DNA from: Clostridia bacterium
Lineage (GTDB): Bacteria; Bacillota; Clostridia; Oscillospirales; Acutalibacteraceae
Direction of reading: 5' to 3'
Length of the DNA stretch: 64,000 nt
NCBI GenBank assembly: GCA_017416765.1
Contig: JAFQBE010000012.1
Location: 1 to 64,000 of the forward strand
Below, one piece after another: positions 14,056-34,584 of this stretch. The position numbers and the translations under genes were made by a program. Within the stretch, counting starts at the first letter, position 1. Every line of letters starts with the position of its first letter. Under the pieces are notes generated by a model, which saw only the letters and a program-made list of their open reading frames with translations, was not told the DNA's origin and did no database searches.

Positions 14056-14084
14056 TTGATTTTTTGGAAGATATATAGTAAAAT
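14056..14084 (+). promoter_or_regulatory. Promoter of tRNA-Ser
   Basis: TTGATT (14056-14061), 17-nt spacer, TAAAAT (14079-14084), 17 nt before the tRNA. Confidence 0.7.
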
Positions 14085-14101
14085 ATCGACTGTTGACTTA
14101 T

Positions 14102-14194
14102 GGAGAGTTGTCCGAGCTGGTCGAAGGAGCACGATTGGAAATCGTGTAAGTCGCTAAAACGGCTTCGAGGGTTCGAATCCCTTGCTCTCCGCCA
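14102..14194 (+). tRNA. tRNA-Ser (GGA)
   Basis: A class II tRNA with a long variable arm. Acceptor GGAGAGT pairs with GCTCTCC, the anticodon stem CACGA/TCGTG encloses TTGGAAA (anticodon GGA), and discriminator G and CCA are encoded. The last 13 nt of this gene are repeated downstream in the 199-bp tandem array, and a broken inverted copy occurs at 15441-15503. Confidence 0.95.
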
Positions 14195-19037: not shown

Positions 19038-19409
19038 CTAAATTAGACTTAAATACTTAACATTGTAAAATTCAATAGTTGTTGCTTTGTGTTCTCCGTC
19101 ATATATAGCAAGAGGAAACCAAATGTCATTAATAAACTCTGTGAAAGGAGTTTTTGCTTCGTTAATAAGCCGTTGTTGCTTTCTGATTGGGTCTAAAACT
19201 TCTTTTTCATATTCCTCTTGCACTTTTGCTTCCCATTCTGCGGCGGCTTTCTCTGCGGCTTTTAATGCCTTTGCAGGGGACAATCCGTCAGGCGCAAACC
19301 AAGTTGTGTATTGATTGATTTGCTTTCCGATTTCGTTTCTTCCGAGATACGCACGGAATTTGAATGAAACTGTTTTGCCGTTCTTCTTGTTTTCAATTAC
19401 TGTTGCCAA
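19038..19409 (-). pseudogene. Tyrosine integrase, N-terminal remnant
   Basis: A 123-aa frame starting at TTG 19409 after AAAGGA. It contains an arm-type DNA-binding domain (FKFRAYLGRNEIGKQINQYT) and the start of the core-binding SAM-like domain (FTEFINDIWFPLAIYDGEH). It stops there, whereas full integrases reach about 380-420 aa with the R-H-R-Y catalytic domain, none of which is present. It is thus a decayed integrase marking the left side of the island. Confidence 0.8.
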
Positions 19410-19662: not shown

Positions 19663-20025
19663 ATGAAAACTAATAATATTTCTTACAGACGAGTTGGCGA
19701 CTACAATATTCCTAACCTTGTATTACCATCCGAAGAAACAAATACCACTCTCAGCAGATGGGGAATGTTACATAAAAATTATCTTCTGAAACATAAGAAG
19801 GTTGTATTTGCGACGCTGCTAGCAGAAGGCAAACTGTGGCAGTGCCTCGCAGATATTGATACTCAGGCACAACAGATGTTTGATACTCTTGTTGAACAAC
19901 TGAAAAAGGCTGAAGGTGTAACGGAGCAACTGAAAGAAGAAAATCAGATGGAGTGGGTATGTAGTATGCAAAACATTGAGTCAAGAGCAAATGAGCTAGT
20001 ATATAAGGAGCTGATATATGTATGA
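19663..20025 (+). CDS. tnpV: TnpV-like transposon protein
   Basis: A 120-aa protein resembling TnpV of Tn4451-type mobilizable transposons, with the typical opening ISYRRVGDYNIPNLVLP and the run GMLHKNYLLKHKKVVFATLL. TnpV is carried by these elements and is thought to assist excision; its exact role is not settled. The C-terminal half is helical with a Glu/Lys-rich coiled-coil segment. Its stop overlaps the start of a 51-aa gene (ATGA). Finding it at the left end, with the recombinase at the right, supports one mobile element. Confidence 0.8.
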   Translation: MKTNNISYRRVGDYNIPNLVLPSEETNTTLSRWGMLHKNYLLKHKKVVFATLLAEGKLWQCLADIDTQAQQMFDTLVEQLKKAEGVTEQLKEENQMEWVCSMQNIESRANELVYKELIYV

Positions 20026-20243: not shown

Positions 20244-20403
20244 TATTATAGTTTTATGCAAAAAATAAAAGCCTTAAAATATCTATATTTTTTAGTTTAA
20301 TGAGCAATACTGCAAAAAAGTAGAAAATTAAGTCAAAATTGCATAACAAATAACACAAATAATATGTTATAATTATATAAATACAGTCAAATCTTAAATT
20401 TTC

Positions 20404-20420
20404 TTGTCACATTATGACAA
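20404..20420. promoter_or_regulatory. Palindrome TTGTCA-N5-TGACAA upstream of the ECF sigma gene
   Basis: An exact 6-bp inverted repeat with 5-nt spacer, 53 nt before the sigma-factor ATG. It overlaps possible sigma-A elements (ATGACA and TATATG 17 nt apart). It fits an operator for a dimeric repressor, but no cognate regulator is identified. The TGTAAGA/GACTATA motif is absent here, so the sigma gene seems to be transcribed independently of its own product. Confidence 0.35.
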
Positions 20421-20472: not shown

Positions 20473-21009
20473 ATGGATTATAATAAAAAAATAGTAAACG
20501 AGTTATGGCAAGAGCATGAGCCGTATATTCGCAAACTATGTACATATAAACTAAAAAGTTTACCTGATTATGTTGATGATTGCGTTCAAGATGTTTTTCT
20601 TGATTTATCCGATGCCATAAATAAAGGAAAAACAATAGAATATCCAAAAGCTTGGTTGACAAAGGTAGCAAACAATAAAATTAAAGATATTTATACGCAA
20701 GTAAAAAAGGATGCAGAAAGACTTATCCCCCTTGACTCTCAAAATCTTGACAACACTTACTCGGGTGTCATTTATGATGAATATTTCACAATTAAAGATG
20801 AGGAAATTCCGGTTCTTAAAGAAAAAGTTATTAATATGCTTGATGATAATGAACAGCAATTACTATATGACAGATACACATTAAAGAAAGCTATTTCTAT
20901 AATTGCTAAAGAGCATAATACTACAGAGAATAACATTTATCAGAAACTATTTAGATTGAAACAAAAGACCAAGATGTTAATCGAAAATGTATTAAACGAA
21001 AAAAATTAA
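20473..21009 (+). CDS. ECF-type RNA polymerase sigma factor
   Basis: A 178-aa group 4 sigma factor that directs RNA polymerase to a small regulon. Region 2 spans about 12-75 (LPDYVDDCVQDVFLDLSDAI, AWLTKVANNKIKD) and region 4 about 115-170 (LDDNEQQLLYDRYTLKKAIS, TENNIYQKLFRLKQK). It is followed directly by a membrane protein with anti-sigma layout. Its likely targets are the three TGTAAGA-N15-GACTATA promoters in this island, none of which precedes the sigma gene itself. The gene is AT-rich like the rest of the cargo. Confidence 0.88.
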   Translation: MDYNKKIVNELWQEHEPYIRKLCTYKLKSLPDYVDDCVQDVFLDLSDAINKGKTIEYPKAWLTKVANNKIKDIYTQVKKDAERLIPLDSQNLDNTYSGVIYDEYFTIKDEEIPVLKEKVINMLDDNEQQLLYDRYTLKKAISIIAKEHNTTENNIYQKLFRLKQKTKMLIENVLNEKN

Positions 21010-21018
21010 TAATTTTTT

Positions 21019-21047
21019 TGTAAGAAATCTAAATATGTTAGACTATA
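21019..21047 (+). promoter_or_regulatory. ECF promoter 1 (anti-sigma operon)
   Basis: TGTAAGA (21019-21025), 15 nt, GACTATA (21041-21047). The predicted start lies just before the anti-sigma ribosome site GGAGG (21053-21057), giving an almost leaderless mRNA. The same two heptamers at the same spacing occur at 22524 and 27265. Confidence 0.75.
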
Positions 21048-21068
21048 TAGTTGGAGGTAGAATGAATA

Positions 21069-21866
21069 ATGCTTACAGATAAAGAGTTTTTATCCTTCAT
21101 CAACGACAAATCACTTGACGGTTCATTAGAAGAAAACCTTAACAAAATAATTGATGAAGAGATGGAAAAGTCCGAAGAAGAAATGGATGCAGAGCTTATT
21201 GAGTATTGTTTAGACAAATTAAGCAAGCTCGAAGCTGAAACACCTGCTACAGAAGAAAAGAAAGGTAATGGTGATTCCAATGGTAAACACATAAAACTCA
21301 AATTAAAAAAGGTTATTGCAGTTGCCGCTGCAATTGCAGTCTTTCTCGTTGGCACATTGTCGGTATCTGCAGTTGTATTTGATGTTAATTTGTTTGATGG
21401 TATTGTTGAACTATATAATGATTATATTCGTATTAATTTTGACAAAACCGATGATAAAGCTGATGAATACCAACTCCTCGGTACAGAACTCGCCAAAGAA
21501 CTTGCTGATAATGGGTTTAATGAAGTGCTTTTACCGGAAGCTTTTTTCTCAGAATATTATGAAATTCAAAAAATGGAGTATGATGTTACTGAAGTCGTTG
21601 TAACTGCAAATATAACTTTTAATTATGAAAATAAACATGGTTACATTAATATAAGCAAATATTCTATGAATGAAATTGTGCCGGATGTTGAATTTCTTAA
21701 CGTCACAAGTAATATTGAAGAACTGACAATAGGTAATACAACTGTATACTGTTTTATGCAAGATGATGCTACGGCAATTACTTATAGGGATGGTTTATTT
21801 ATTTATTTCATTCAAATCCCGTTAAGTTTAGATGATGCAATAGAATTTGCAAAAACTATTAAATAA
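21069..21866 (+). CDS. Membrane-anchored anti-sigma factor, probable
   Basis: A 265-aa protein with the layout of a transmembrane anti-sigma factor. An acidic cytoplasmic N-terminal part (1-75) is followed by a basic stretch and one membrane helix (VIAVAAAIAVFLVGTLSVSA, about 80-100), then an extracellular domain of about 160 residues similar in style to DUF4367 sensor domains (GNTTVYCFMQDDATAITYRD). It would hold the sigma factor at the membrane until an external signal arrives. The start is the ATG at 21069; an ATG 7 nt earlier stops after six codons. It has its own ECF promoter between it and the sigma gene, giving negative feedback. Confidence 0.78.
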   Translation: MLTDKEFLSFINDKSLDGSLEENLNKIIDEEMEKSEEEMDAELIEYCLDKLSKLEAETPATEEKKGNGDSNGKHIKLKLKKVIAVAAAIAVFLVGTLSVSAVVFDVNLFDGIVELYNDYIRINFDKTDDKADEYQLLGTELAKELADNGFNEVLLPEAFFSEYYEIQKMEYDVTEVVVTANITFNYENKHGYINISKYSMNEIVPDVEFLNVTSNIEELTIGNTTVYCFMQDDATAITYRDGLFIYFIQIPLSLDDAIEFAKTIK

Positions 21867-21878
21867 GGAGTGTTTGTT

Positions 21879-22391
21879 TTGAAGAAAATTATATCAATAT
21901 GTTTAGTTTTATTATCAATTTCAAGTATGATGTCAATTAATGCTTTTGCAGTGGATTTAGTTGGTGAGGATATACTTGTAATAGAAGATGACATTATTGA
22001 AGAAGTATATGGATTATACAACACAAACAATAGTTCAAATATAAGTTTAATGTCAACGGGATTGATAGTGAGCAAATCCTTGAAATTATCAAAAACCTCA
22101 AATGGTTTAATAATTACTGCTACAACAGTAGGCAATGCTGATGTAAAAAAATGTGGTTTTACTTATATTAAATTACAGAGATTAATTAACGGCACTTGGA
22201 CAGACTACACTACTTACTGCTATTATGACCAATACTCCGAATCGACATCAAAAACATTTTCAAAAACTATTACTGCCCCTACAGGATATACCTATCGTGT
22301 AATTTGTGAACATTATGCTGAGAAAACCAAACTTTTAATTTTTAAAGAAACGGAAACAAGTTATAATGTAACCTCTTCGTTAGCGTTTTGA
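21879..22391 (+). CDS. Small secreted protein downstream of the anti-sigma gene
   Basis: A 170-aa exported protein. The start is TTG 21879, 8 nt after AAGGAG; the in-frame GTG at 21870 falls inside that site. The signal peptide (KKIISICLVLLSISSMMSIN, cut after AFA) is followed by an acidic segment and then a beta-rich domain with repeated T/S strands (SNGLIITATTVGNADVKKCG, YRVICEHYAEKTK) and three Cys. It resembles small clostridial secreted proteins of the DUF6147 type, but I am not certain. It is co-transcribed with the anti-sigma gene and could be a signal protein or effector of the system. Confidence 0.7.
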   Translation: MKKIISICLVLLSISSMMSINAFAVDLVGEDILVIEDDIIEEVYGLYNTNNSSNISLMSTGLIVSKSLKLSKTSNGLIITATTVGNADVKKCGFTYIKLQRLINGTWTDYTTYCYYDQYSESTSKTFSKTITAPTGYTYRVICEHYAEKTKLLIFKETETSYNVTSSLAF

Positions 22392-22414
22392 TTATATATT
22401 TTTATGTTTCATAT

Positions 22415-22452
22415 AAACCCCGTACAATTTGTGTTAATTGTATGGGGTTTAT
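22415..22452 (+). terminator. Terminator of the anti-sigma/secreted-protein operon
   Basis: AAACCCC-G-TACAATT pairs with AATTGTA-T-GGGGTTT, followed by ATTGTGT. The stem is strong and the U-tail poor. Confidence 0.75.
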
Positions 22453-22523
22453 TGTGTCTGAAAATAAACGTTTTTCTTACAAATCCTACAAAATTAATAA
22501 GAAATATTTATGCAATATGTTTT

Positions 22524-22552
22524 TGTAAGATTTTAAATTATTGAGGACTATA
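22524..22552 (+). promoter_or_regulatory. ECF promoter 2 (radical SAM/RiPP operon)
   Basis: TGTAAGA (22524-22530), 15 nt, GACTATA (22546-22552), with extra shared T residues before the -35. The start would be near 22558, leaving a ~55-nt leader to the radical SAM gene, which has an AGGGG ribosome site. Confidence 0.75.
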
Positions 22553-22612
22553 TTATTGAAAACCGATTTTTTTATCAGAATGAAAATTTTAGTTTAACTA
22601 GGGGTTGATTGT

Positions 22613-23647
22613 ATGAGTAGAAGTGTTCTTGAAACTATAGGTATAGATATTACATATAATTGTAATTATCGATGCAAACATTGTTTTAATTCTAGTGGAA
22701 CACATAATTTTGCAAAGGAAATGACTGACGAAACATTGAAGCAATTAGTAAATGATATTTCAAAGTTAAATTTAAGAGGAGCATGTATTTGCGGAGGAGA
22801 ACCACTTTTGCGAAAAAAAATCTTATTAGAAATTATTGATCTATATAAATCAAGCAATCCTATACAAGGTTTTAATATGGTAAGCAACGGATTCTATATA
22901 GACAGACAGACTGCCCATGATTTAAAAAGTGCTGGAATTAATTCTGTTCAAATAAGTTTAGATGGTGCCACTGCTGAAACCCATAATTGGTTAAGAAATA
23001 ATACAGATGCATATGAACATGCAATAAAAGCCATTGATTTTTTAGTAAAATCGGATATTGATGTTAGTGTTGCATGTGTTCCAAATAAGCAGAATTTTAA
23101 TGAAATATCAGAATTAATTGATTTGTGTCAAAAATTAGGTGTCAACAGAATAAGATTTCAACCACTAATGAGTCTCGGACGAGGAAAAAATATGGAGCAA
23201 TATTTTTTAAATGATGAAGAATATTTTGTATTGTCCAGAAAACTTGATTCAAAAAGAAGTAGTAACAGCCATATTCAAATAGAATGGGGGGATCCGATTG
23301 AGCATCTTTTTGCATATTGTAGTGGTTTTTCAGGATTAAAATTTATTGAAATAAGTGCTTATGGCGATTTGCTAATATCGCCTTATTTGCCTCTAAAATT
23401 AGGTAATATTACCAGACATAATATATTTGATTATATAAATGCAGGATTAACAGATGTATTAAATAATGATTTCATAAGGCTGATTACATCATTGATAACA
23501 GATGCAGCAAAAATGGATGAGCAATCTAGAAAAGTTTTACCTGAAATATTTACAGGAAATGATATTTCAATAGATATCATAGACGAGAATTTTTCAGAAA
23601 AAACATTAATGTTTGTACAAAGATACACAAAAGGGGAAACATTATGA
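22613..23647 (+). CDS. Radical SAM peptide-modifying enzyme, probable
   Basis: A 344-aa radical SAM enzyme. The [4Fe-4S]-binding motif is C17-N-Y-R-C21-K-H-C24 and the SAM-binding GGEP is in GACICGGEPLLRKK. The family fold continues through VQISLDGATAETHNWLR and NRIRFQPLMSLGRG, as in SPASM/Twitch peptide maturases. The C-terminal part has the SPASM-like YGDLLISPYLP but lacks the Cys cluster, so no auxiliary cluster is apparent. It is the first gene of an operon with an RRE protein, a Gly-Gly precursor and an exporter, so it probably modifies that peptide. The reaction (crosslink, epimerisation or other) cannot be told. Its stop overlaps the next start (ATGA). Confidence 0.87.
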   Translation: MSRSVLETIGIDITYNCNYRCKHCFNSSGTHNFAKEMTDETLKQLVNDISKLNLRGACICGGEPLLRKKILLEIIDLYKSSNPIQGFNMVSNGFYIDRQTAHDLKSAGINSVQISLDGATAETHNWLRNNTDAYEHAIKAIDFLVKSDIDVSVACVPNKQNFNEISELIDLCQKLGVNRIRFQPLMSLGRGKNMEQYFLNDEEYFVLSRKLDSKRSSNSHIQIEWGDPIEHLFAYCSGFSGLKFIEISAYGDLLISPYLPLKLGNITRHNIFDYINAGLTDVLNNDFIRLITSLITDAAKMDEQSRKVLPEIFTGNDISIDIIDENFSEKTLMFVQRYTKGETL

Positions 23648-24102
23648 ATATTTGTTTATTAAAAGAAAACAGATATAGTGATATTAAAAATTTTATTGAA
23701 GCTAATCATGAAAAAATGTATATATCAGATCAAATTCAAGATAAATTTAATTATTTCACTAATACGGAATTGAGGTTTTTACTGTTTTCTGGCAGAGTAC
23801 TATGTCTTGCAAATGTAGAAAATGGAACAATAATTGATATAGCATTATTACTTTTGCCAGATGATTTTTATAATTTAACAATATCTAAATTTATTCTATT
23901 CTCTATTAACAATGATACTTTCTTTGAAAAAATGTTAATTAAACTAAAAACGATTTTGGCAGGATGTTGTATAAAAAAAATAGTTGCCTTTGTTAACAAC
24001 AATGAGCGATTGGCAAATTTTCTTCTTCAAAATGGATTCTTAGAAGAATACCATTTGACTACTATTATCGGCAATCGAGTGAGAATGTCATTATTAATAT
24101 AA
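23644..24102 (+). CDS. GNAT-like protein of the RiPP cluster
   Basis: A 152-aa protein starting within the radical SAM stop codon. The C-terminal part (KKIVAFVNNNERLANFLLQNGFLEEYHL) has the helix-strand ending of GNAT acetyltransferases, and the preceding strands fit, but the acetyl-CoA loop (Q/R-x-x-G-x-G/A) is not clear. It may be a diverged acyltransferase that modifies the peptide, or a structural partner. The tight coupling places it in the same pathway as the radical SAM enzyme and the RRE-GNAT fusion. Confidence 0.6.
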   Translation: MNICLLKENRYSDIKNFIEANHEKMYISDQIQDKFNYFTNTELRFLLFSGRVLCLANVENGTIIDIALLLLPDDFYNLTISKFILFSINNDTFFEKMLIKLKTILAGCCIKKIVAFVNNNERLANFLLQNGFLEEYHLTTIIGNRVRMSLLI

Positions 24103-24122
24103 ATTGCTAAAGGAGATTAATC

Positions 24123-24938
24123 ATGAAAACCATTTTCAAACCAATCATTGGCCCATACTATGAAGGAAATACGATTCAATCAGGTCAATATGTTTTATTT
24201 TCCTCATTACTACCAAACAGAACATTCAGTTTAAATAAAACAGGTTTTGAAGTTTGGAAAAGTATTGAAAAAGGGTTAAATATTAATGACATAATAAATA
24301 ATATGTGTGAATTATATAAATCAATAGATAAAGATGTAATCTCTAATGACATATTAAAAGTTATAAAAAAATTATGGAAAAATGGTTTCATTTCTTTTGA
24401 AAATGAAAATCCATTCGAAAATGATTATATATATGATTTTAATAATGATTTATTAATTAAAAAAAATGTTTTTGGATTGACTACTGAATATATGAAATGC
24501 ATAAATTCTAACATACATTTTTTTAACAATGCTTATACCCCGATAGAAAAGTTAACGGATCGTAATACTATAAATGCAGAACTGTTTTACAATATAAATA
24601 ATATTTATGTTTTGTTAAGTAAAACTAAAAATGATATATTAGCAATGATATCTTTCAGTATTGATTCTTTTAATGGAATTGTTGATATTAACACCTTATT
24701 CTTTAAAAGTCAAGAAAACATTATGCATGAATTCATAAAAAAAAGTATAATTGTTGAACTGGGTATTCGTGGTATAAATGAAAACGAATTTAATAAGTAT
24801 AATATTTTATTTCATATTATTTCAAAAAAACAGGATTGCATAGATCTAATCCAATTAGGATTTGAGAATTTCACAACATTAAAACAAGAATCAAAATTTG
24901 GTGATATCATAGTTTATAAATTCCATCCTCACATATAA
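24123..24938 (+). CDS. PqqD-like RRE fused to a GNAT-like domain
   Basis: A 271-aa protein. Residues about 18-95 (YVLFSSLLPNRTFSLNKTGF, INDIINNMCELYKSI, VIKKLWKNGFIS) match the PqqD/RiPP recognition element, which binds leader peptides and hands them to modifying enzymes. Residues about 110-271 look like a second GNAT-like domain (SIIVELGIRGINENEF, CIDLIQLGFENFTTL). The fusion suggests that the leader-binding module brings the peptide to an acyltransferase as well as to the radical SAM enzyme. Its last codons form the left arm of an inverted repeat around the precursor gene. The GNAT assignment is weaker than the RRE. Confidence 0.7.
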   Translation: MKTIFKPIIGPYYEGNTIQSGQYVLFSSLLPNRTFSLNKTGFEVWKSIEKGLNINDIINNMCELYKSIDKDVISNDILKVIKKLWKNGFISFENENPFENDYIYDFNNDLLIKKNVFGLTTEYMKCINSNIHFFNNAYTPIEKLTDRNTINAELFYNINNIYVLLSKTKNDILAMISFSIDSFNGIVDINTLFFKSQENIMHEFIKKSIIVELGIRGINENEFNKYNILFHIISKKQDCIDLIQLGFENFTTLKQESKFGDIIVYKFHPHI

Positions 24939-25176
24939 TATTTTTACATGGAGTTGATTTTATGAATGACGATTACCTTTCCGAGTATAATAGTCCTGAT
25001 TTATTTGAAAATGATGGGATTTCAACCTATAGTTCCGATGATGAACCATCTGGTGGTAGCATATTTATATTAATATCAGCAGTTATAATTGCTGCTGCCA
25101 TATATAATGTTGTTCTTTATGCTAATACATATTTAACCAAGTCTTAGTTACTCATATGTGAGGATGGATTTATAAA
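24913..25176. repeat. Inverted repeat enclosing the precursor-peptide gene
   Basis: The left arm (24913-24936) is the 3' end of the RRE-GNAT gene; the right arm (25154-25176) follows the precursor stop. The arms are complementary over 23 bp except for one extra T in the left arm; the core is CCATCCTCACATAT/ATATGTGAGGATGG. In mRNA they could pair around the whole precursor gene; in DNA they could allow inversion. The right arm lies just before the ribosome site of the next gene. Confidence 0.7.
24962..25147 (+). CDS. Gly-Gly leader precursor peptide with hydrophobic core
   Basis: A 61-aa peptide with a GGAG site 8 nt before the ATG. Residues 1-32 form an acidic leader (MNDDYLSEYNSPDLFENDG, then STYSSDDEPSGG) ending in Gly31-Gly32, the classic cleavage signal of peptidase-linked exporters. 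Residues 33-61 are a 29-residue hydrophobic core, starting SIFILISAVIIAAAIYN and ending NTYLTKS; it has no Cys, so thioether formation is excluded. Its position between an RRE protein and an ABC exporter argues for a ribosomally made, modified peptide. An alternative is a small membrane protein, as the core could span a membrane. Confidence 0.72.
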   Translation: MNDDYLSEYNSPDLFENDGISTYSSDDEPSGGSIFILISAVIIAAAIYNVVLYANTYLTKS

Positions 25177-25196
25177 AATGTAAGGGGGTGAGGTAT

Positions 25197-25532
25197 TTGC
25201 TTAGATTATATGTGGGAATAGTATTTGTTATATATGGAATAATTCTGTTTTCTTCAAAAGGTTTAATCTTCCTTGCTGGATATAAACAAGCGGAAAATCG
25301 ATTCAACAAAAAAAGAGTTTCCAAAGCCATAGCTCCTGTTTTTTTCTTTATAGGTCTTCAGATTATTATATTTTTTTTAATAGACAGGTTACAATTTGGT
25401 GACTATAAAAATATTGAAAATATTTTAGAAGCTGTTGAAATGATATGCGTTGTTACTTTAGTAATACTAGTTAATGTTTGTCCATATTTTCGCAACAACA
25501 AAGAAAATGATGACAAGGATGAAAATAGATGA
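25197..25532 (+). CDS. Small membrane protein (DUF3784-like), possible immunity protein
   Basis: A 111-aa protein with three predicted membrane helices (about 4-20, 44-62 and 82-98). The segment SSKGLIFLAGYKQAENRFNK resembles the DUF3784 signature of a hydrophobic strand, then AGY and a charged run. The start is set at TTG 25197, 8 nt after AAGGGGG; the in-frame GTG at 25188 overlaps that site. Its end overlaps the exporter start (ATGA). Small membrane proteins at this place in bacteriocin operons often give self-protection; that role is inferred from position only. Confidence 0.65.
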   Translation: MLRLYVGIVFVIYGIILFSSKGLIFLAGYKQAENRFNKKRVSKAIAPVFFFIGLQIIIFFLIDRLQFGDYKNIENILEAVEMICVVTLVILVNVCPYFRNNKENDDKDENR

Positions 25533-27148
25533 TAAAATTAGGTAGATATATTCTTAAATTTTTAGATAAATCAAAAAAATTGTTCGTTGTTTCAATTTTC
25601 TTATCAATTATAAATACTGGAATTTCTGCAATAATTCCATATTATATTGGAATATTCATTGATTCATTGATATCTCCAGTTGATATGAATAGTATATTGC
25701 GTTTTATTGTTTTTATATTTATTTTAAATGCATTTTGTATTATTTTAAATTACGTAATTAAAATAATAAATATGAAAGTAATATGCAATCTTGAATTTAA
25801 CATTCTTCGTGCAAATATTAATCATATACAAAAAATACCAATGGATAATTTTTTCACCAATTTCAATGCTTCGCAATTGACACAACGAATAACCGCTGAT
25901 ACAAAAACAATTGTATCATTTTATTTTAATTACATAATTCAATTTTTTGTAAACATTATATATTTTATTTTTTTGATTATTGCAATGCAAAAAATAAGCA
26001 CAAAAATTGTTTTTATTGCATTGCTATTTATTCCTATTTATATTTTATGTTTCTTTTTATCAAAGAAAAAATTATTTAATTCAAACCTACAAGTAAAAGA
26101 AATTAATACTGTATTCTACAAGAAATTGTTTGAGCAACTAAAATATATAAAAAATATAAAAACCGATGTTCTTTTTGATATTAGCAACAATACAATGAAA
26201 GACTCATTTGATGATGTGTTTTCAGCTAATTTAAGAAATACAAAATTAAATCAAAATATTTCCTTAATAAGCAGTATGCTCTCTGTTTTTGCATTAAGTA
26301 GCATGCTGATTGTAAGTGCATATCAAACATTAAATGGAGTAATGTCAATTGGTGGACTTACAACAACAAATTCATATTTTGGACAACTATTTAATGTTAT
26401 AAGTTTTTATTTTTCTTTCGCACAGGTAAGCCAAAATGCAAATGCATCACTACAAAGATTAAATGAACTATCTAAAATCAAAAATGAAAATAATGGAAAT
26501 GTTGTTTTAAATGCTATAGATGAAATTGCTTTATATAATGTGAAATTTGGCTATGGAGAATCGGATGTTGGATTAAATCTTACAAATGAAGTCAAAAAAT
26601 TTAAAAAGGGAAGCATATATCAATTCATTGGAAGAAATGGTTCAGGAAAATCAACTTGCATAAATATCATACTGGGCATATATCAAAAGTTAAATAAAGG
26701 AACTGTTTCATTTAATGGAATTGATTTAAAAGAAATTGATCTTTATACAATGCGAAAAAATAAAATATCAGTATTACAACAGGATGAGTACTTCCCGGAT
26801 TTAACAGTTGCTATGTATCTTTCAAACATTCTTAACATAACAGATATAGATTTAAAACAAAGAATCAAAGACAGTATGTTATATGGTTTTTTTCAAAATG
26901 AAGATGAACTCGATAGTTTTATGCAAAAAAAATGTAATTGCATGTCTGGGGGACAAAAACAACTTGCAGGTCTTTTAAAAACATTTCTTAAAAATGCTGA
27001 TGTTTATATTTTGGATGAACCAGATACTGCACTAGATGTTTTTCATATTCAAAAATTGAAGAATTGTTTAATAAAACTAAGTCAGCATTCAATCATAATT
27101 ATAATCAGCCATAGTAATGAATTTACTGATAATTTGATATATTTTTAG
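25529..27148 (+). CDS. ABC transporter, fused permease and ATPase (peptide exporter)
   Basis: A 539-aa half-transporter. Residues 1-310 form the exporter-type membrane domain with about six helices. Residues ~330-539 form the ATPase with Walker A GRNGSGKST, signature CMSGGQKQLAG, Walker B VYILDEPDTALD and the switch His in ISHSNEF. It probably works as a homodimer exporting the modified peptide. There is no N-terminal C39 peptidase domain, although the precursor has a Gly-Gly site, so cleavage needs another protease in the genome or does not happen. It ends the RiPP operon, followed by a hairpin terminator. Confidence 0.88.
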   Translation: MIKLGRYILKFLDKSKKLFVVSIFLSIINTGISAIIPYYIGIFIDSLISPVDMNSILRFIVFIFILNAFCIILNYVIKIINMKVICNLEFNILRANINHIQKIPMDNFFTNFNASQLTQRITADTKTIVSFYFNYIIQFFVNIIYFIFLIIAMQKISTKIVFIALLFIPIYILCFFLSKKKLFNSNLQVKEINTVFYKKLFEQLKYIKNIKTDVLFDISNNTMKDSFDDVFSANLRNTKLNQNISLISSMLSVFALSSMLIVSAYQTLNGVMSIGGLTTTNSYFGQLFNVISFYFSFAQVSQNANASLQRLNELSKIKNENNGNVVLNAIDEIALYNVKFGYGESDVGLNLTNEVKKFKKGSIYQFIGRNGSGKSTCINIILGIYQKLNKGTVSFNGIDLKEIDLYTMRKNKISVLQQDEYFPDLTVAMYLSNILNITDIDLKQRIKDSMLYGFFQNEDELDSFMQKKCNCMSGGQKQLAGLLKTFLKNADVYILDEPDTALDVFHIQKLKNCLIKLSQHSIIIIISHSNEFTDNLIYF

Positions 27149-27162
27149 ACTTAAAAAAATAC

Positions 27163-27196
27163 TTTGGTGACCCGATTTCATATCACCAAAATTTTT
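27163..27196 (+). terminator. Terminator of the RiPP operon
   Basis: TTTGGTGA/TCACCAAA stem with a 12-nt loop, followed by ATTTTTG, 14 nt after the exporter stop. Confidence 0.85.
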
Positions 27197-27264
27197 GCTA
27201 AAAATTAACACCATCCACGTTAAAATGCACAAACTCACAACGGAATATTTATACAGTATTACCT

Positions 27265-27293
27265 TGTAAGATTGCATAATTTTCAAGACTATA
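27265..27293 (+). promoter_or_regulatory. ECF promoter 3 (lectin-metalloprotease operon)
   Basis: TGTAAGA (27265-27271), 15 nt, GACTATA (27287-27293). The transcript would carry a ~245-nt leader (27300-27544), which is AT-rich, holds no convincing small gene, and shows only weak hairpins. Identical in core and spacing to the promoters at 21019 and 22524. Confidence 0.75.
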
Positions 27294-27544
27294 ATAATGA
27301 AAGGAAAGATTTGTTTTTCTTAGCTGAAAAAATAGGATGTGAATCCAATGTACTGATTTGTATTTGTTTCAATATAATATTGCAATTTACAATTGATAGT
27401 TGAATTATGAAGTTTATTAATGGCTGAAAAGTATTATTTTAGTCCAGTATGAAGCTTTCAGTATAATTTACTGCTTCACGAAAAGGATAACTACTTGCCT
27501 AAATATCTAAACCAGATTATTATAATAGGAGGACAGTTTTAATA

Positions 27545-28555
27545 ATGAAATCAAGTCGTTTAAAGTTATTTTCTTGCATATTGATAATTGTAATGCTATT
27601 TTCTTTGTTTGGTGCTGTCACGGCATATTCATACGGCCCCACAGCACCAAACAATGAATATTGTTATATACGTGCAGTAAAAAGTGGAAAATACATAACA
27701 GTGCCAAACGGAACCGTATCCAATGGAAAGGAAATAAAGATTTATAGTGGTGATGTAACGGCATCTCAAAGATGGCATATATATACTTATTCTGATGGCT
27801 ATAGTATTATACGTTCTGCGATTAATTCAAATTATTATCTTTCACTCAAGAACAGTACATCAACGAATAATGCAAAACTAACAATAGAATATTTTGCATC
27901 GGGAACAGCAATACCATCAAGAGCCATCTTTATGTTTATTGGCGATGCTTCATTGGGTATAACGTATATAATTAATAAGAGTACATTAGCTGAGCATGCT
28001 ATGATAAAAGTTTTAGAGGCTTATGGCGGTTCAATTAGTGATGGAACAAACATTGTAAATTATGATGCGCATGAAGGTATAGATGCAGCACGTAATCAAT
28101 ATTGGGTTATAGAAAGCACAACCCGAACAACATATAAATGGGCATATGATTTAGTTGATAGTGGTGGACACTGTGATTGGGACTCATCATCAATATATAC
28201 AGATATGGTTACTGAAGCAGCATATGCTTGGAATAACAGATTAAATGCAACTATTTTTAGAAAAGATTCATTAAGTGTTGTGCAAGATGTAAAAATTATT
28301 GATGCACTCCAAAACCCCTCGAATACCCAGACTTTTGCAACTACTTCAGCAGATACTAAAAAAATAACATTTTATACAATTCCTATGGATGCACTTCCAG
28401 GAGATGTGGTTAGAATGCATACTGTGACACATGAACTCGGGCATTGTTTAGGGCTGTATGAAAGTAGTCAACAGGGAAATATAATGACGCAGGGTGGTTT
28501 GGCGTATGGCACATCGATTAGTTTGGACGATGTTGCGACATATAAGCTCACATAG
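27545..28555 (+). CDS. Exported ricin-lectin/metzincin-like metalloprotease
   Basis: A 336-aa secreted protein with a signal peptide (about 1-28). Residues ~38-190 look like a ricin-type beta-trefoil lectin (YIRAVKSGKYITVPNG, QRWHIYTYSDGYSII, NQYWVIE), suggesting glycan binding. Residues ~200-336 carry a zinc-protease site H296-E-L-G-H300-C-L-G303-L-Y-E306 with a Met-turn at NIM (M314). In canonical metzincins the third ligand is His or Asp; here Glu306 stands at that place. AGGAGG precedes the ATG. It is expressed from an ECF promoter shared with the RiPP operon. It could attack host or competitor glycoproteins, or process the secreted peptide. Confidence 0.8.
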   Translation: MKSSRLKLFSCILIIVMLFSLFGAVTAYSYGPTAPNNEYCYIRAVKSGKYITVPNGTVSNGKEIKIYSGDVTASQRWHIYTYSDGYSIIRSAINSNYYLSLKNSTSTNNAKLTIEYFASGTAIPSRAIFMFIGDASLGITYIINKSTLAEHAMIKVLEAYGGSISDGTNIVNYDAHEGIDAARNQYWVIESTTRTTYKWAYDLVDSGGHCDWDSSSIYTDMVTEAAYAWNNRLNATIFRKDSLSVVQDVKIIDALQNPSNTQTFATTSADTKKITFYTIPMDALPGDVVRMHTVTHELGHCLGLYESSQQGNIMTQGGLAYGTSISLDDVATYKLT

Positions 28556-28579: not shown

Positions 28580-29398
28580 ATGAAAAAAAGTGTTATTTCT
28601 GCAATATTTATAACTATAATTTGCGTTTTCACTATCGGTACAGTATCATTTAAAAATCAACAGCCAAAAGTTTCTTATATTGAAGGAAATTATGCTATAG
28701 ATATCAATGATCCCTATGCAGTTGTTGGTGCAAAAGATTATGTATTTATTTGTGAAGTTTTAGAAGTAAAAGACTGTAATACAGAGATTTCTAAAGATGA
28801 GTTACCTGATTCAATAATTGAATTTGATACTCCAATGACGCGATGTATAGTTAAGGTTTTAAAAAATATGAAGGGAAATCTCAAAGAAGAAGAAATAATT
28901 ACGTTTTATAAAGATTGTGGTTTGAGCAGCGACGGAAAAGTTTTACAAATTTATAAGAACGATCTAATGCCTGAAGCCCATAAAGTATATATTTTTATGG
29001 GCTATGGTCAATATGATGGTACTATAACTGGCGGTGGCGAAAACGGAACAATTTTTGTATGCAATTCTGATGGAATATATAGTGAAACAAAAATTTATAA
29101 TGAATACATTCAATATATAAATAATCAAGTTTCCCCACCCATTGAATATCCTCATTATTTAGCATATGCAGATGTAAATTTCGGTGATGGTTCAGTAAAT
29201 AAAAATATATATGAAGAATTCAATTCATCTATTGACAACGTTACAGAACAATCATTAGGTAGCTCAATAAATAAAAAAATATATGAGGAATCAAATTCAT
29301 CTATTAAAAAAGTTACGGGGCAATCATTAGAAGACCTTATTAATGAAAAACTTGATTATGCAAACAAAAATCCAGTTGATGAATATATCGCTCCGTGA
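28580..29398 (+). CDS. Exported protein with C-terminal tandem repeat, function unknown
   Basis: A 272-aa protein with a signal peptide or anchor (about 1-24) and a globular middle (YVFICEVLEVKDCNT, GNLKEEEIITFYKDCG, VYIFMGYGQYDG). Near the end, two ~24-residue repeats occur (NKNIYEEFNSSIDNVTEQSL and NKKIYEESNSSIKKVTGQSL), a recent internal duplication visible also in the DNA. It lies 25 nt after the metalloprotease gene with a good GGAGG site, so it shares ECF promoter 3. It may be a partner, inhibitor or surface anchor of the protease; no family is recognised. Confidence 0.7.
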   Translation: MKKSVISAIFITIICVFTIGTVSFKNQQPKVSYIEGNYAIDINDPYAVVGAKDYVFICEVLEVKDCNTEISKDELPDSIIEFDTPMTRCIVKVLKNMKGNLKEEEIITFYKDCGLSSDGKVLQIYKNDLMPEAHKVYIFMGYGQYDGTITGGGENGTIFVCNSDGIYSETKIYNEYIQYINNQVSPPIEYPHYLAYADVNFGDGSVNKNIYEEFNSSIDNVTEQSLGSSINKKIYEESNSSIKKVTGQSLEDLINEKLDYANKNPVDEYIAP

Positions 29399-30324: not shown

Positions 30325-31524
30325 ATGTCAAAGAAAAATTACAGTGTAGCAAGAGTTGTCACTCACACACAAAGCTCAATCGGCAAATGTGAAAGGCACA
30401 ACGAGAGAAAGAATGAGTCTTACGCAAATATGAATGTTGATATGGCTCGGTGTGATATGAATGTGCATTTCAAGAGCTGCGGTGAACTGACCTACTATGA
30501 ACAACTGAATAGGCTCATAGCCGAAAAGAGAGTCTGTATGCGTGGCCTGAAAACTGATGCGAAAGTCTTTGATGAAGTCATATTCGATGTCAACACAGAC
30601 TACTTTGAAACTCACGGCGGTTATGAATATGCCAAAGAGTTTTATGAGGAAGCCTATCGTTTCGCAGTCAATCTCTACGGCGAACAGAATATCATCTCTG
30701 CCGTAATGCATGCCGATGAACTGAATATAGCTCTCACGGAACAGTATGGAAAACCTGTGTATCACTATCATATGCATCTTGTAGCTTTGCCTGTTGTAGA
30801 AAAGCAAATCTTATGGACAAAGCGGTGTAAGGACAAATCGCTTGTAGGTACTGTGAAAGAAAACGTCAATCAGATAAGCCACTCAAAGAAATGGAAATCA
30901 CCTCAGGCTGTGGATGAAAACGGTAATGTTGTATTCAACGAAAAAGGCAAGCCTGTACTGATTCCGTCTTACAGTATCCTGCAGGATGATTTCTTCAACC
31001 ATATGCAAAAAGCCGGTTTCAATGATTTCATCCGTGGTGAAAAAGGCAGTACGGCTGAGCATCTGTCTTGTCTGCAATATGAAATTCAACAGGATAAGAA
31101 ACGCCTTGAGGAAATCAAAGAACGATTGCAGACGGAAGAAATCAGATACGATGAAGTTCAGACCGTGAATAAAACCTTCTATGAGATTGACGGTATGGGT
31201 AAAAAGTCCATAACCGGTAAGGTTACTGTTACTGCTAAGGATTTTGAAGATTTAAGTACAATGGCAAAGCAGTCCGTTGCAGCACGAAGCAAAATATACA
31301 ACCTTGAACATGAAAACAAAAGGCTACAAAGCAAGGTTTGGGATTTGCAATGCAGGATAAACAGATTGAGTGAAAGACTTCATGAACTTGAACAAGTCTG
31401 TGCACCATATCTTGAGGCATTGAGGCTGATGCCTGAAAAAGTAAAAGCATTTATCTCGGATGTGCTGAAAACTGTCCGAAAAGAGAAAACCAACAAAAAT
31501 ATAGAAATAAAAAAAGAGAGGTAA
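30325..31524 (+). CDS. MobV-family relaxase (plasmid recombination/mobilization protein)
   Basis: A 399-aa relaxase that nicks oriT and allows the excised element to be mobilised by a helper conjugation system. The N-terminal region has the MobV opening (VARVVTHTQSSIGKCERHNE), the motif VMHADE, and the metal-binding HYHMHLVALPV (about 151-161). The C-terminal third is a long coiled coil (KKRLEEIKERLQTEEIRYDE, LEHENKRLQSKVWDLQ), as in Pre/Mob proteins. A clear AGGAGG precedes the ATG. It is 4 nt upstream of the ParB-like gene and begins a tightly packed mobility operon ending in the recombinase. Confidence 0.92.
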   Translation: MSKKNYSVARVVTHTQSSIGKCERHNERKNESYANMNVDMARCDMNVHFKSCGELTYYEQLNRLIAEKRVCMRGLKTDAKVFDEVIFDVNTDYFETHGGYEYAKEFYEEAYRFAVNLYGEQNIISAVMHADELNIALTEQYGKPVYHYHMHLVALPVVEKQILWTKRCKDKSLVGTVKENVNQISHSKKWKSPQAVDENGNVVFNEKGKPVLIPSYSILQDDFFNHMQKAGFNDFIRGEKGSTAEHLSCLQYEIQQDKKRLEEIKERLQTEEIRYDEVQTVNKTFYEIDGMGKKSITGKVTVTAKDFEDLSTMAKQSVAARSKIYNLEHENKRLQSKVWDLQCRINRLSERLHELEQVCAPYLEALRLMPEKVKAFISDVLKTVRKEKTNKNIEIKKER

Positions 31525-31528
31525 TTAA

Positions 31529-32446
31529 ATGAAAAAAGAAGATAATTTTATTAACACCCTGTTTGAGAAAGCAGAAGAAACAGAGGCTATAAAGCCTCAG
31601 ACAACAGAAATCATAAAGATGCCTATGAGCAGTATTGTTCCGAATTTTAAGAATCCGTACAAGTGCCGTGAAGAGGATATGAAGCCGTTGGAAGACAGTA
31701 TCCGTGAAAATGGTATCATACAGCCTCTTATAGTACGAAAGGATGATAAAGCGGATGTGTACGAAATCATATCAGGTCACAGACGTTTCCTTGCAGCAAC
31801 AAGGCTTAAACTGACAGAGGTGCCCGTTGTTGTATTGGACATAAGCAAAGAGGAAGCGGATATTATCCTTGTTGACAGTAATCTGCACCGAGAGCATATT
31901 TTGCCCTCGGAGAAAGCCTTTGCATACAAGATGAAAATGGATGCCATTAAAAGACAAGGTAAACGCACAGATTTAACTTCAGACCAAGTCGGACCGAAGT
32001 TGTCTGCGGATGAAATATCCGATACCGACAGTGCTTCTCAGGTGAAAAGATATATCCGCCTTACCAACCTGATTCCGAGGCTTCTTGCTTTGGTAGATAG
32101 CGGTAAAATAGCATTTGGTCCTGCTGTTGAGCTTTCATATCTCAGCCAAGGCCATCAGAACTTTTTGGCTGAGGCTATTGAAAAAGAGCTCGCTACACCG
32201 TCCCTTGCACAGGCACAGAAATTGAAGAAGTTGGAACAAGAAGGAAATCTTAATGTCGGTACAATTCTTAGTATGGTTAAACAGCCAAAACCTAATCAGG
32301 TCGTTACAGTTAAAATCCCCGAAGATAAAATCAGTAAATATATGAAATCTACTGCTACCGTAAAAGAAAAGGAAGATTTTCTTGCAAAGGCAGTTGAGTA
32401 TTATGGTAAGCATCTTATGAAGCAGAAAGACAGAGGTGCGAGATAA
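31529..32446 (+). CDS. ParB/RepB-like nuclease-domain partition protein
   Basis: A 305-aa ParB-family protein. The N-terminal ParB domain (about 30-125) shows IVPNFKNPYKCREEDMKPLE, IQPLIVRK, the box II motif ISGHRRFLAA and NLHREHILPSEKAFAY; the middle holds the helix-turn-helix DNA-binding region. No ParA partner is present. On mobilizable transposons of this type such proteins stand between the relaxase and the recombinase; they probably bind element DNA, but their precise job is not known. Its stop overlaps the next start (TAATG). Confidence 0.9.
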   Translation: MKKEDNFINTLFEKAEETEAIKPQTTEIIKMPMSSIVPNFKNPYKCREEDMKPLEDSIRENGIIQPLIVRKDDKADVYEIISGHRRFLAATRLKLTEVPVVVLDISKEEADIILVDSNLHREHILPSEKAFAYKMKMDAIKRQGKRTDLTSDQVGPKLSADEISDTDSASQVKRYIRLTNLIPRLLALVDSGKIAFGPAVELSYLSQGHQNFLAEAIEKELATPSLAQAQKLKKLEQEGNLNVGTILSMVKQPKPNQVVTVKIPEDKISKYMKSTATVKEKEDFLAKAVEYYGKHLMKQKDRGAR

Positions 32447-32682
32447 TGAAAAAGGTTAAAGATTTTTATGGACTCGCTTCTGATAGTGAATATGTAATTG
32501 ACGGTGTACTTTACAAGGTTTCTTCCAAATTCGCACCCGTGAATATTTGTAAGATTGAAAACACCATAAGTGACAAAGCACAAAAATATGTAGGCAGTGA
32601 TTTTGCACATTTGACAAATGCCGATGATAAAAATACAATGAATGCAGAATATGTATGTTTGACTGCCGGGAAGGAGGATTAA
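32446..32682 (+). CDS. 78-aa mobile-element protein, function unknown
   Basis: A small protein translationally coupled on both sides: its ATG overlaps the ParB stop, and its stop overlaps the recombinase ATG (TAATG in each case). The sequence contains YGLASDSEYVIDGVLYKVSS and ends CLTAGKED; no membrane segment or known motif is seen. Similar short frames commonly occupy this slot before large serine recombinases. It might be an excision accessory protein. Confidence 0.7.
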   Translation: MKKVKDFYGLASDSEYVIDGVLYKVSSKFAPVNICKIENTISDKAQKYVGSDFAHLTNADDKNTMNAEYVCLTAGKED

Positions 32683-34385
32683 TGCAGTCTGAAGCAAACA
32701 TCGGAATTACTGCTATCTACTGCCGATTATCAAGAGATGACGGTGCAGAGACAGAGAGTAATTCAATCGGCAACCAAAAGAAAATGCTGACACAAAAGGC
32801 AAAGGAATTAGGTTTAACAAATACTAAGTATTATGTTGATGACGGCTATACGGGAACAAACTTCAACAGACCTGCTTTTCAGGAGCTTCTTGACGATATT
32901 GAAATGGGATATATATCGGTTGTTATCGTAAAAGACCTTTCCCGTTTAGGACGAGATTATGTTTCGGTTGGTCATTATACAGACAACTATTTCCCTGAGT
33001 ATAATGTAAGGTTTATCGCTGTTAATGATATGGTTGACAGTGATGAGGGTGAGAACGAAATCGCCCCTTTCAAGAATGTTATGAATGAAATGTATGCGAG
33101 AGATATCAGCCGTAAGGTCAGAAGTGCTCATCGTATTCGCGGAAATATGGGAGAACCGTTATCTCAGCCACCATACGGCTATATGAAAAGTCCTGAAAAC
33201 AAGAAAAAGTGGATAATCGATACCGAAGCTGCAGAAGTGGTCAGGGACATTTTCAGAATGTGCCTTGATGGTATGGGGAATGAATCAATCGCAAGAGAAC
33301 TGCAGAACAGACAAGTGCTTATCCCTATGGCGTATTGGCAAAGCAAAGGTCTTAACCGAGGTGGTAAGAAAACTCAACCGAATCCGTATAAGTGGTGTAA
33401 AACTACTGTTCAGAAAATCCTCTGTCAACAGGAATACTGCGGTGATGTAATCAACTTTAAGACCTATTCCAAAAACTTTAAGAACAAAACCCGTATTGAT
33501 AATCCCGTGGAGAATTGGAAAATCTTCAGGGATGTTCACGAGCCTATTATTGACCGTGATACTTGGGAAACGGTACAGAAGCACACTGCTCAAACAAAAC
33601 GCAGAGCACCGAAAAAAGAAAATGCAAGAAAGCATATCTTCAGCGGTCTTATACGCTGTGCTGATTGCGGAAGTAATATGAGGTATCACACAAACACTGT
33701 CAACAAGGATATTCACTATTTCAGTTGCGGTAATTATGTTAAAGATACCCGTGGCACTTGCCCTGAACGACACTATATCCGTGCAGATGCTCTTGAACAG
33801 ATAGTCATCTTTGAGCTGAAACGCCTTGCAATTATGCTTCAACAGGATGAAAAGCTTCTTGCAGAAATTCTTGAAAAGAAAACCCATAAGGATTTTTATG
33901 ATGAGAAGAAATTTCTTGAAGGTGAATTGCAGAAAGCCATAGTCCGTCAACAAACAGTTGCTTCTCTTTATGAGAAGCTGTATGAGGATAATGCTACGGG
34001 TAAGGTTACGGATGAGTGGTTTACCCACATGTCTCACAAGTATGAGGTTGAGAGAGCAGAGCTGAAAATCAAGATATTTAACCTGAGAGAACAGGTTGCA
34101 AATATGCAGACAGTTCAGCACAGTAAGGATATGTTTATCGGTGCGGTAAGAAAGTTCTTGGATATGGAAACAATCACAGCACCACTAATCCACGAGCTCA
34201 TTGACCACATTGATGTTTATGAGGCAGAGGGTAAAGGTAAGAACAAGACTCAGAGAGTTGTGATTCACTACAACTTTGTAGGCTATCTTGAAATACCTGA
34301 AAATGATGAACCTTGTTTCACGGCAGATACCCGTCAGGGAGTAGCAATAGGATATATTGCAAACCCTACAGAAAAGTTAGCATAA
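32682..34385 (+). CDS. Large serine recombinase, TnpX-type
   Basis: Catalyses excision and insertion of the element through a serine-DNA intermediate. The 567-aa protein has the resolvase catalytic domain (about 9-150) with nucleophile Ser17 in YCRLSRDDG and the arginine motif LSRLGRDYVS. It continues with the recombinase domain (NMGEPLSQPPYGYMKSPENK), a zinc ribbon (CADCGSNMRYHTN with FSCGNYVKDTRGTC) and a C-terminal DUF4368-like segment. The start is ATG 32682 after AAGGAGG; a longer frame to 32655 lacks a ribosome site. It is the last gene of the mobility operon at the right end of the island. Confidence 0.93.
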   Translation: MQSEANIGITAIYCRLSRDDGAETESNSIGNQKKMLTQKAKELGLTNTKYYVDDGYTGTNFNRPAFQELLDDIEMGYISVVIVKDLSRLGRDYVSVGHYTDNYFPEYNVRFIAVNDMVDSDEGENEIAPFKNVMNEMYARDISRKVRSAHRIRGNMGEPLSQPPYGYMKSPENKKKWIIDTEAAEVVRDIFRMCLDGMGNESIARELQNRQVLIPMAYWQSKGLNRGGKKTQPNPYKWCKTTVQKILCQQEYCGDVINFKTYSKNFKNKTRIDNPVENWKIFRDVHEPIIDRDTWETVQKHTAQTKRRAPKKENARKHIFSGLIRCADCGSNMRYHTNTVNKDIHYFSCGNYVKDTRGTCPERHYIRADALEQIVIFELKRLAIMLQQDEKLLAEILEKKTHKDFYDEKKFLEGELQKAIVRQQTVASLYEKLYEDNATGKVTDEWFTHMSHKYEVERAELKIKIFNLREQVANMQTVQHSKDMFIGAVRKFLDMETITAPLIHELIDHIDVYEAEGKGKNKTQRVVIHYNFVGYLEIPENDEPCFTADTRQGVAIGYIANPTEKLA

Positions 34386-34507: not shown

Positions 34508-34584
34508 TGGTCGGAGTGACGGGACTTGAACCCATGGCCTCTTGGTCCCGAACCAAGCGCGATACCAAACTTCGCCACACCCCG
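34508..34584 (-). tRNA. tRNA-Pro (CGG)
   Basis: A complete minus-strand cloverleaf: acceptor CGGGGTG with CACTCCG (one G-U), anticodon stem CTTGG/CCAAG around TTCGGGA (anticodon CGG), T-loop TTCAAGT, discriminator A and CCA. It marks the right border of the accessory island. Confidence 0.95.

Follow-up and report, generated by a model that had tools for sequence, protein, structure and literature searches.

A sigma factor gene at position 20473 and three copies of a promoter-like sequence, TGTAAGA-N15-GACTATA, lie together in the first 64,000 nucleotides of contig JAFQBE010000012.1 (assembly GCA_017416765.1), from a Clostridia bacterium of the family Acutalibacteraceae. This whole stretch is hereafter called the window. 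The sigma factor is of the extracytoplasmic function (ECF) type, and the three sites, that we named P1, P2, and P3, each precede an operon. Very probably, these genes and sites make up a self-sufficient ECF sigma regulon that a Tn4451-like mobilizable element carries in its passenger region; in this regulon, the sigma factor would be held by a membrane protein, released upon an outside signal, and directed to the three sites. The interpretation as an ECF regulon, first made from the letters of the window (the original prediction), is supported by the sequence comparisons described here. Other loci, genomes, and contigs are designated by L, G, and C numbers, respectively.

Three Identical Sites Precede Three Operons

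The original prediction had described three sites with a gap of exactly 15 nt between the heptamers and with differing spacers. All three were recovered on the plus strand (table 1), each with genes downstream on the same strand, and the spacers (AATCTAAATATGTTA, TTTTAAATTATTGAG, and TTGCATAATTTTCAA) differ. The three units are separated by two hairpins, one between the P1 and P2 units and one between the P2 and P3 units; each unit therefore plausibly needs its own start. When the whole genome was scanned (2.77 Mb, 47 contigs), P1, P2, and P3 were the three exact matches and no fourth was found. Allowing one mismatch added two matches elsewhere, each inside an ORF (one purF-like, named by eye, and one of 530 amino acids [aa]), and the reversed pattern gave one match. 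The scan thus came out as had been predicted for sites restricted to the island, instead of returning many unrelated matches over the genome.

The region is AT-rich, the genes from the sigma gene through that of the 272-aa protein having a GC content of 22.9–35.5%, which might favor a pattern due to chance or copying. Such an artefact is hardly credible: the exact motif appeared in 0 of 100 dinucleotide shuffles of the window (mean 0.00), the spacers differ, and the motif is conserved in relatives of other genera.

The Exact Motif Is Confined to Carriers of the Sigma Factor

We searched 250 genomes of the family with the sigma protein and then scanned them for the motif. Sigma matches at E ≤ 1e-10 were found in 23 genomes. 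Relatives of at least 51% identity are present in five of these (the genome of the window, G000, and G018, G056, G108, and G207), followed by matches of 44–45% in G133 and G222, a partial match of 40% in G080, and matches of at most 34% in the remaining genomes. The exact TGTAAGA form occurs at 10 sites, distributed as 3, 2, 2, 1, and 2 among the five genomes in the order given, and is missing from the other 245, which lack a close sigma relative. The related form TGTAACA occurs at four sites, one beside the sigma gene of G133 and the others in G004, G204, and G213, which have no sigma match. As a control, the two forms were reversed and counted together, which gave 14 matches in 13 of the 250 genomes.

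Ten further genomes, reached through named loci, were scanned for exact sites. Six of them encode a sigma factor of the clade with a tyrosine at residue 156 (Tyr156 clade, see below) and contain 15 exact sites, all on the contig of the cassette: four in L122, three each in L112, L113, and L114, and one each in L121 and L124. The four genomes with Lys, Arg, or Glu sigma factors (L118, L119, L125, and L127) contain none. In total, 25 exact sites were found in 11 genomes of the sigma clade, of which about nine are independent, the cassette of L112 being practically that of the window and those of L113 and L114 near copies. On the contig of the sigma gene, 24 of the 25 sites are found, with starts within 6,246 bases. 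In relatives with 51–85% identity, the exact motif is located 3′ of the sigma gene (L007–L010), and its conservation there agrees with the proposal of a regulon restricted to the island. The contig of L114 (JAGBBT010000114.1) is binned as Treponema and its cassette is nearly identical to that of L113, reflecting either misbinning or transfer.

This distribution also bears on whether the sites are ordinary sigma-A promoters, as the TATA-rich second block and the resemblance of TTGTAA to a −35 element could suggest. We consider this very improbable, given an exact motif absent from 245 of 250 genomes, invariant heptamers and spacer length, and a distance of 20 nt from TTGTAA to TATA instead of the usual 16–18 nt.

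Residue 156 and the −31 Base Change Together

Residue 156, a tyrosine in the window, aligns with Lys170 of Bacillus subtilis SigW when the recognition helices are laid out as VKTRIHR (SigW) and IYQKLFR (window); for this alignment, the SigW letters other than the six listed next are those that we take this helix to have. The SigW residues documented are T168, K170, T171, R172, H174, and R175, and Lys170 touches the G′ opposite C−31 (PMC6713349).

We scanned 33 junctions between a sigma gene and a membrane protein gene for the motif without scoring the −31 base. The weights were chosen from AAG sites, and each junction was compared with 200 letter shuffles (threshold, P ≤ 0.01). Significant sites were obtained in 17 junctions. 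All 10 with a tyrosine at residue 156 carry G at −31, and all seven with arginine or lysine (L078, L079, L080, L093, L097, L118, and L119) carry C. The L119 sigma factor has an otherwise similar helix (ENNIRQRLYRLK vs. ENNIYQKLFRLK) with an arginine, and its promoter is TGTAACA-N15-GACTATA. The window and L119 thus form a natural pair, differing at residue 156 and at one base of a promoter heptamer, that could serve as a test of ECF specificity change. Since the sigma residue predicted to contact the −31 base has changed along with it, the original reading of the sites as a sigma regulon is supported.

Alternatively, the conserved blocks and their constant spacing might represent a two-part operator bound by a regulator, and the ribosome-binding site of P1, only 5–6 nt past the second block, would fit sites that are not promoters. 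We judge this distinctly improbable. A base of the sites follows a sigma residue, the two blocks do not repeat each other, the second is TATA-like, and no common regulator gene besides that of the sigma factor was noticed in the gene maps, which are partly family-annotated.

The genome of the window contains two more cassettes in which a sigma gene is accompanied by the genes of a membrane protein and a secreted protein (G000 C14:74787–76719 and C8:28309–30242; L092 and L093). Both sigma factors have a lysine at position 156. The C8 junction carries TGTAAC-N16-CATTATA, significant in the scan, and the C14 junction a TGTTAC that was identified by hand and did not reach significance. As these paralogues combine a lysine with other junction elements, one cell may house parallel sigma systems that differ in their promoters. 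In total, the genome holds eight other sigma-like matches at E ≤ 0.1, including those of C14 and C8, and P1–P3 could be ECF promoters read by one of these. It is unlikely, since the exact motif tracks the 20473-type sigma across genomes, the −31 base tracks its residue 156, and both paralogous cassettes have Lys there and different junction elements.

The Sigma Factor and Its Proposed Promoter

The identification of the gene at 20473 as an ECF sigma gene holds: the protein scores 54.7 bits with TIGR02937 (cut-off 42.9). With Pfam, Sigma70_r2 is above the cut-off (29 vs. 24) and region 4 below it (14.8 vs. 25.7). At 178 aa, it conforms to the layout of ECF (group IV) factors, that is, regions 2 and 4 in about 160–200 aa. 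An AAC motif in the −35 and CGT in the −10 element were an early hallmark of ECF promoters, before the definition was narrowed to the domain layout (PMC8103513). The sites of the window have AAG and GACTATA instead, which refines the original reading of them as ECF promoters.

Positive autoregulation is the usual ECF case and another early hallmark (PMC8103513). It is not observed here. As originally claimed, the sigma gene lacks the motif: no site with up to three mismatches is present between 16774 and 20473. No TGTAASA-type site with up to one mismatch was found upstream of the sigma gene in the mapped loci of relatives, and the sigma genes of the window, L113, L114, and L122 have no TGTAAGA site. 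We propose for the sigma gene a sigma-A-type promoter with an extended −10 element, which is also recognized in L113, L114, and L122 and not in L074. Between this promoter and the gene lies an inverted repeat, possibly an operator, that is kept in L114 and L122 and changed at one base in L113. Lacking a TGTAAGA promoter of its own, an active sigma factor would raise its inhibitor and not itself.

L124 contains two TGTTACTTTTTG...ACTATATAA elements, at 6437 and 11388, one of them 142 nt before the sigma gene. Judging from this element, the L124 sigma gene may be driven by a promoter of another ECF type.

The Presumed Anti-Sigma Factor and Its Secreted Partner

The membrane protein encoded at 21069 is the presumed anti-sigma factor of the sigma factor. 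Just past its hydrophobic segment, Val99-Ser-Ala101 resembles a signal peptidase site. Among 22 aligned members, the −1 position is alanine in 21 and the −3 position is V, A, G, or I in all 22. A PDB profile search with this protein returned four weak matches (E 0.04–0.5), none being an anti-sigma factor.

The following gene encodes a secreted protein of a family in which one of 14 members gave a weak Pfam match (E 0.0033); a PDB search gave no match. In L102, the corresponding domain makes up the C-terminal portion of secreted proteins that are longer. Cassettes of the Tyr156 clade share the order sigma gene, P1, membrane protein gene, and secreted protein gene, and P1 is exact in all except L124, where it has one mismatch (GACTTTA). 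In L078 and L079 (44–45%), a different protein occupies the third place. Ten of 20 further loci have a secreted-family member directly after the sigma and membrane protein genes; L105 has one elsewhere.

These features would be explained as follows. The sigma-A-type promoter would supply a basal level of sigma factor, kept inactive by the one-pass membrane protein. An outside signal probably uncovers the signal peptidase site past the membrane segment, in an RsiV-like manner, and would thereby release the sigma factor. The free sigma factor would then read TGTAAGA-N15-GACTATA at P1, P2, and P3 through an altered −35 contact, Tyr156 replacing the lysine or arginine that reads the G opposite C−31, and the promoters carrying G−31. 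From P1, more anti-sigma factor and secreted partner would be produced; as the sigma gene is without such a promoter, the loop would be a negative feedback. The peptide system would be made from P2 and the lectin-metalloprotease pair, which is secreted, from P3 (both described below); the same three operons had been named as targets in the original prediction. The sites, with their confinement, their conservation, and the pairing of base and residue, are seen in the sequence itself. We infer that the sigma factor encoded at 20473 uses P1–P3, that the 21069 protein acts as its anti-sigma factor, and that such a signal is the trigger.

Varied, Probably Exchangeable Cargo behind the Sites

The operon downstream of P2 encodes a maturase and a PqqD-type recognition domain, two features expected of a cluster for a ribosomally synthesized and post-translationally modified peptide (RiPP). 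Of the six operon proteins scanned with Pfam, none matched a lanthipeptide synthetase family. The PqqD protein was matched in one of the 250 family genomes, that of the window, and a search for the operon elsewhere, made through this protein only, yielded no plasmid record. The RiPP-like operon sits between the secreted protein gene and the lectin-metalloprotease pair, two modules that are neighbors in L072. There, homologues of the pair follow the second site (identities of 26% and 28%, with E values of 1e-19 and 1e-07). The gene of the 272-aa partner protein contains a tandem 72-nt repeat, 79% identical (window 29192–29335).

Exact sites occur in series in other loci, numbering, with the first included, two in L072, three in L113, and four in L122, and L114 likewise has two beyond the first. 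The relatives carry other cargo, such as a lipoprotein encoded along with a C39-like protein (below cut-off), or an LCAT-like lipase. In the third promoter-tagged operon of L122 (11459–12832), the gene of a secreted HNH protein comes before that of an SMI1/KNR4 (SUKH) protein, both matching above cut-off; the two look like an interbacterial toxin-immunity pair. Three cargo pairs recur between loci. The promoter would mark a small set of exchangeable effector operons as co-regulated: because cargo operons bring their own copy of it, cargo could be exchanged and control would stay inside the element. This cargo suggests competition with other bacteria, a purpose that we infer.

A leader element, GTGAnnCCRATGTnnTRA, lies between P3 and the lectin gene. 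Its GTGAnnCCRATGT part is common to several cargo leaders (window, L113 10306, L115 8654, L124 8708, and G000 C14:51023–51040), and it can be read as a tiny ORF of the pattern M-x-P-M, an aromatic residue or Cys, and a stop. Where the stop is immediate, the element occurs 32 times in the 250 family genomes versus six for the reversed control. Sixteen of 30 leader loci examined fall within an open frame of more than 150 codons on one strand, and the element is also found behind sigma-A-like promoters. Rfam gave no match at the leader element; a T-box was matched elsewhere in L144, and L159 gave a match far below cut-off. Over the region, Rfam returned a single weak match, far from the sites.

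Taken together, these observations raise a broader proposal that we advance tentatively. Mobile elements of gut Clostridia could harbor a private transcription system, in which a change of Lys/Arg to Tyr together with C to G at −31 would restrict reading to promoters of the element itself, effector modules tagged with these promoters would be exchangeable, and the sigma factor would feed only its inhibitor. Such a system might be insulated from the host and from the paralogous cassettes and serve element-borne competition through a peptide, a lectin-protease pair, a lipase, and a nuclease with its immunity protein.

Observations That Weigh against the Regulon

Several findings count against the regulon as described. 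The association of Tyr with G is one co-switch on the tree: the ten Tyr rows form one clade (97/89), with L118 and L119 outside. As these rows belong to one clade and L113 and L114 are near copies, the 17 concordant junctions are not 17 independent events. Sixteen of the 33 junctions have no significant site; in this group, the best-scoring site of five Lys cassettes contains TTAC. A distant Tyr sigma locus, L107, has an AAG site read by hand that was not significant in the scan and was not counted. In the same way, two TTAG sites read by hand in L127, whose sigma factor has Glu, were not selected by the scan and were not counted; L127 may nevertheless be a second switch, which would go beyond the single one.

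The motif loses its specificity when relaxed. With up to three mismatches, the window is not enriched (9 sites vs. a shuffle mean of 6.28; 14 of 100 shuffles reach 9), and in seven relatives, TGTAASA matches at one mismatch numbered 24, versus 27 for the reversed control. As relaxed motifs do not stand out from shuffles or control, only exact sites were counted as signal. The 25th exact site is on a different contig (G018 C15; 8,636 bases), close to its end, with no clear effector gene after it. In L118, cargo homologous to a pair of L122 (65% and 45% identity) lacks a recognizable promoter ahead. This pair had been taken as a case for the promoter changing with the sigma factor; since L118 has no recognizable second promoter, it does not support the idea.

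At P1 (window 21048–21057), the ribosome-binding site starts 5 nt past the −10 block, leaving an unusually short leader if this block is a −10 element, and at the other P1 sites compared GGAGG or GGGGG begins 5–6 nt after GACTATA. A transcription start 5–9 nt after the block would consequently lie at the edge of the ribosome-binding site or inside it, an unexplained tension with the promoter assignment. The matches of the 21069 protein to DUF4179 and DUF4367 are weak and below cut-off (18.5 vs. 30.1 bits for DUF4179), and it is therefore called RsiV-like in layout and not a member of the family. Finally, the TnpV of the window has no match in L072, L073, L074, and L076, where TnpV alone was compared, so the mobile setting is not general.

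The Mobile Element

A large serine recombinase, TnpV, and a Mob protein, the combination typical of Tn4451-like elements, are encoded on either side of the cluster (table 1), and the Tn4451 genes named for Clostridium difficile elements match these flanking genes (PMC3158075). TnpV-like ORFs also precede the sigma gene in L112, L113, L114, and L122. A tRNA-Pro gene at 34508–34584 is the likely insertion site, judging from the same right-hand sequence at the tRNA-Pro of G148, a genome of the same genus; on contig C31 of G148, the first 31 query bases recur exactly at a distance of 7.5 kb from this tRNA. A second copy of the tRNA-Pro end was not found within the window, nor were the ends of the element.

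A short ORF at 19038–19409 on the minus strand looks by eye like the cut-short start of a phage-type integrase, with no Pfam support. Farther away, two ORFs beside a tRNA-Ser gene (window 14036–14555) share their first 59 residues, a local duplication.

Table 1. Features of the Sigma Cluster and of the Mobile Element in the Window
Feature	Position	Strand	Evidence or remark
TnpV, left part of mobile element	19663..20025	+	PF14198 9.4e-41
Proposed sigma gene promoter, sigma-A-type, extended −10 (TGnTATAAT)	20365..20373	+	Sequence
Inverted repeat TTGTCA-N5-TGACAA, possible operator	20404..20420	+	Between sigma-A-like promoter and sigma gene
ECF-type sigma factor, 178 aa	20473..21009	+	TIGR02937, Sigma70_r2; Tyr156 codon 20938-20940
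P1, TGTAAGA-N15-GACTATA	21019..21047	+	Precedes genes of anti-sigma candidate and secreted protein
Candidate anti-sigma factor, 265 aa	21069..21866	+	One hydrophobic segment, then Val99-Ser-Ala101 and an amphipathic stretch
Secreted protein, 173 aa	21870..22391	+	Family without Pfam or PDB match
Terminator-like hairpin after P1 operon	22410..22456	+	−24.5 kcal/mol, z −6.63
P2, TGTAAGA-N15-GACTATA	22524..22552	+	Precedes RiPP-like operon
Radical SAM protein, 344 aa	22613..23647	+	PF04055 7.2e-24
152-aa protein	23644..24102	+	No match in family-profile searches
271-aa protein, N-terminal PqqD-like domain	24123..24938	+	PF05402 2.9e-10
Candidate precursor peptide, 61 aa	24962..25147	+	Position and sequence; hydrophobic C-terminal half after Gly-Gly; no family
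DUF3784 membrane protein	25188..25532	+	PF12650 34.4 bits, cut-off 28.1
ABC exporter, membrane and ATPase domains	25529..27148	+	PF00664, PF00005
Hairpin then T run, after RiPP-like operon	27163..27190	+	−7.8 kcal/mol, z −2.90
P3, TGTAAGA-N15-GACTATA	27265..27293	+	Precedes lectin-metalloprotease operon
Leader element GTGAnnCCRATGTnnTRA	27339..27356	+	Readable as tiny ORF M-N-P-M-Y-stop
Secreted ricin-B-type lectin and metalloprotease-like protein, 336 aa	27545..28555	+	PF14200 6.6e-14; PF00413 below cut-off; HELGH
Partner protein, 272 aa, probably exported	28580..29398	+	No family match
Mob/Pre relaxase	30325..31524	+	PF01076 7.5e-37
ParB-N protein	31529..32446	+	PF02195 1.9e-18
Large serine recombinase	32655..34385	+	PF00239, PF07508, PF13408, PF14287

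Comparison with Known Systems

An ECF regulon is known in kind; what is new is the AAG −35 element, the near-complete confinement, and the exchangeable promoter-tagged cargo. In the open-licence literature searched, we found no element-private regulon of this sort in print. A close layout is that of SigH-RshA in Corynebacterium glutamicum, where housekeeping promoters serve both the sigma and the anti-sigma gene and the anti-sigma gene alone has, in addition, a sigma-dependent promoter, which was read as a means of fast shut-down (PMC3489674). The design proposed here, with a sigma factor feeding its anti-sigma factor and not itself, is known from that system. According to the same account, the SigH regulon is wide, with 83 genes up in an rshA mutant, whereas here the sigma factor's own cluster contains 24 of the 25 exact sites; the anti-sigma candidate is, unlike RshA, a membrane protein with a secreted partner. 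As in the microbisporicin cluster, where the cluster-encoded ECF pair MibX-MibW is described (PMC4973701), a sigma/anti-sigma pair would control a RiPP cluster. That system is an actinomycete lantibiotic with a master regulator, MibR, and a feed-forward loop (PMC4973701), and the one described here combines a radical-SAM type cluster, a mobile element, and a negative-feedback layout.

The anti-sigma candidate resembles RsiV, the partner of sigma V, a one-pass protein with a signal peptidase site and an amphipathic segment past the membrane helix, whose cleavage by signal peptidase is gated (PMC6066255). It differs from RsiV in matching DUF4179 below cut-off only. With SigW, the sigma factor shares the layout of the recognition helix and differs at the contact position, with Lys170 and C−31 there (PMC6713349) and Tyr and G−31 here.

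Conjugative and Tn4451-like elements of C. difficile have in common with the element of the window a large serine recombinase, TnpV, Mob genes, and sigma-like passengers, the last noticed in 2011 (PMC3158075). The account of these elements, in its passages on the sigma-like genes, posed the question of whether they act on promoters of the element itself or on those of the genome that receives it (PMC3158075). In the present case, unlike in those passages, candidate promoters are identified, and they lie inside the cluster. For one sigma family, the sequence suggests that the promoters read are within the element and essentially only there. The element of this gut bacterium thus seems to direct the genes for its own secreted proteins and peptide while leaving those of its host alone.

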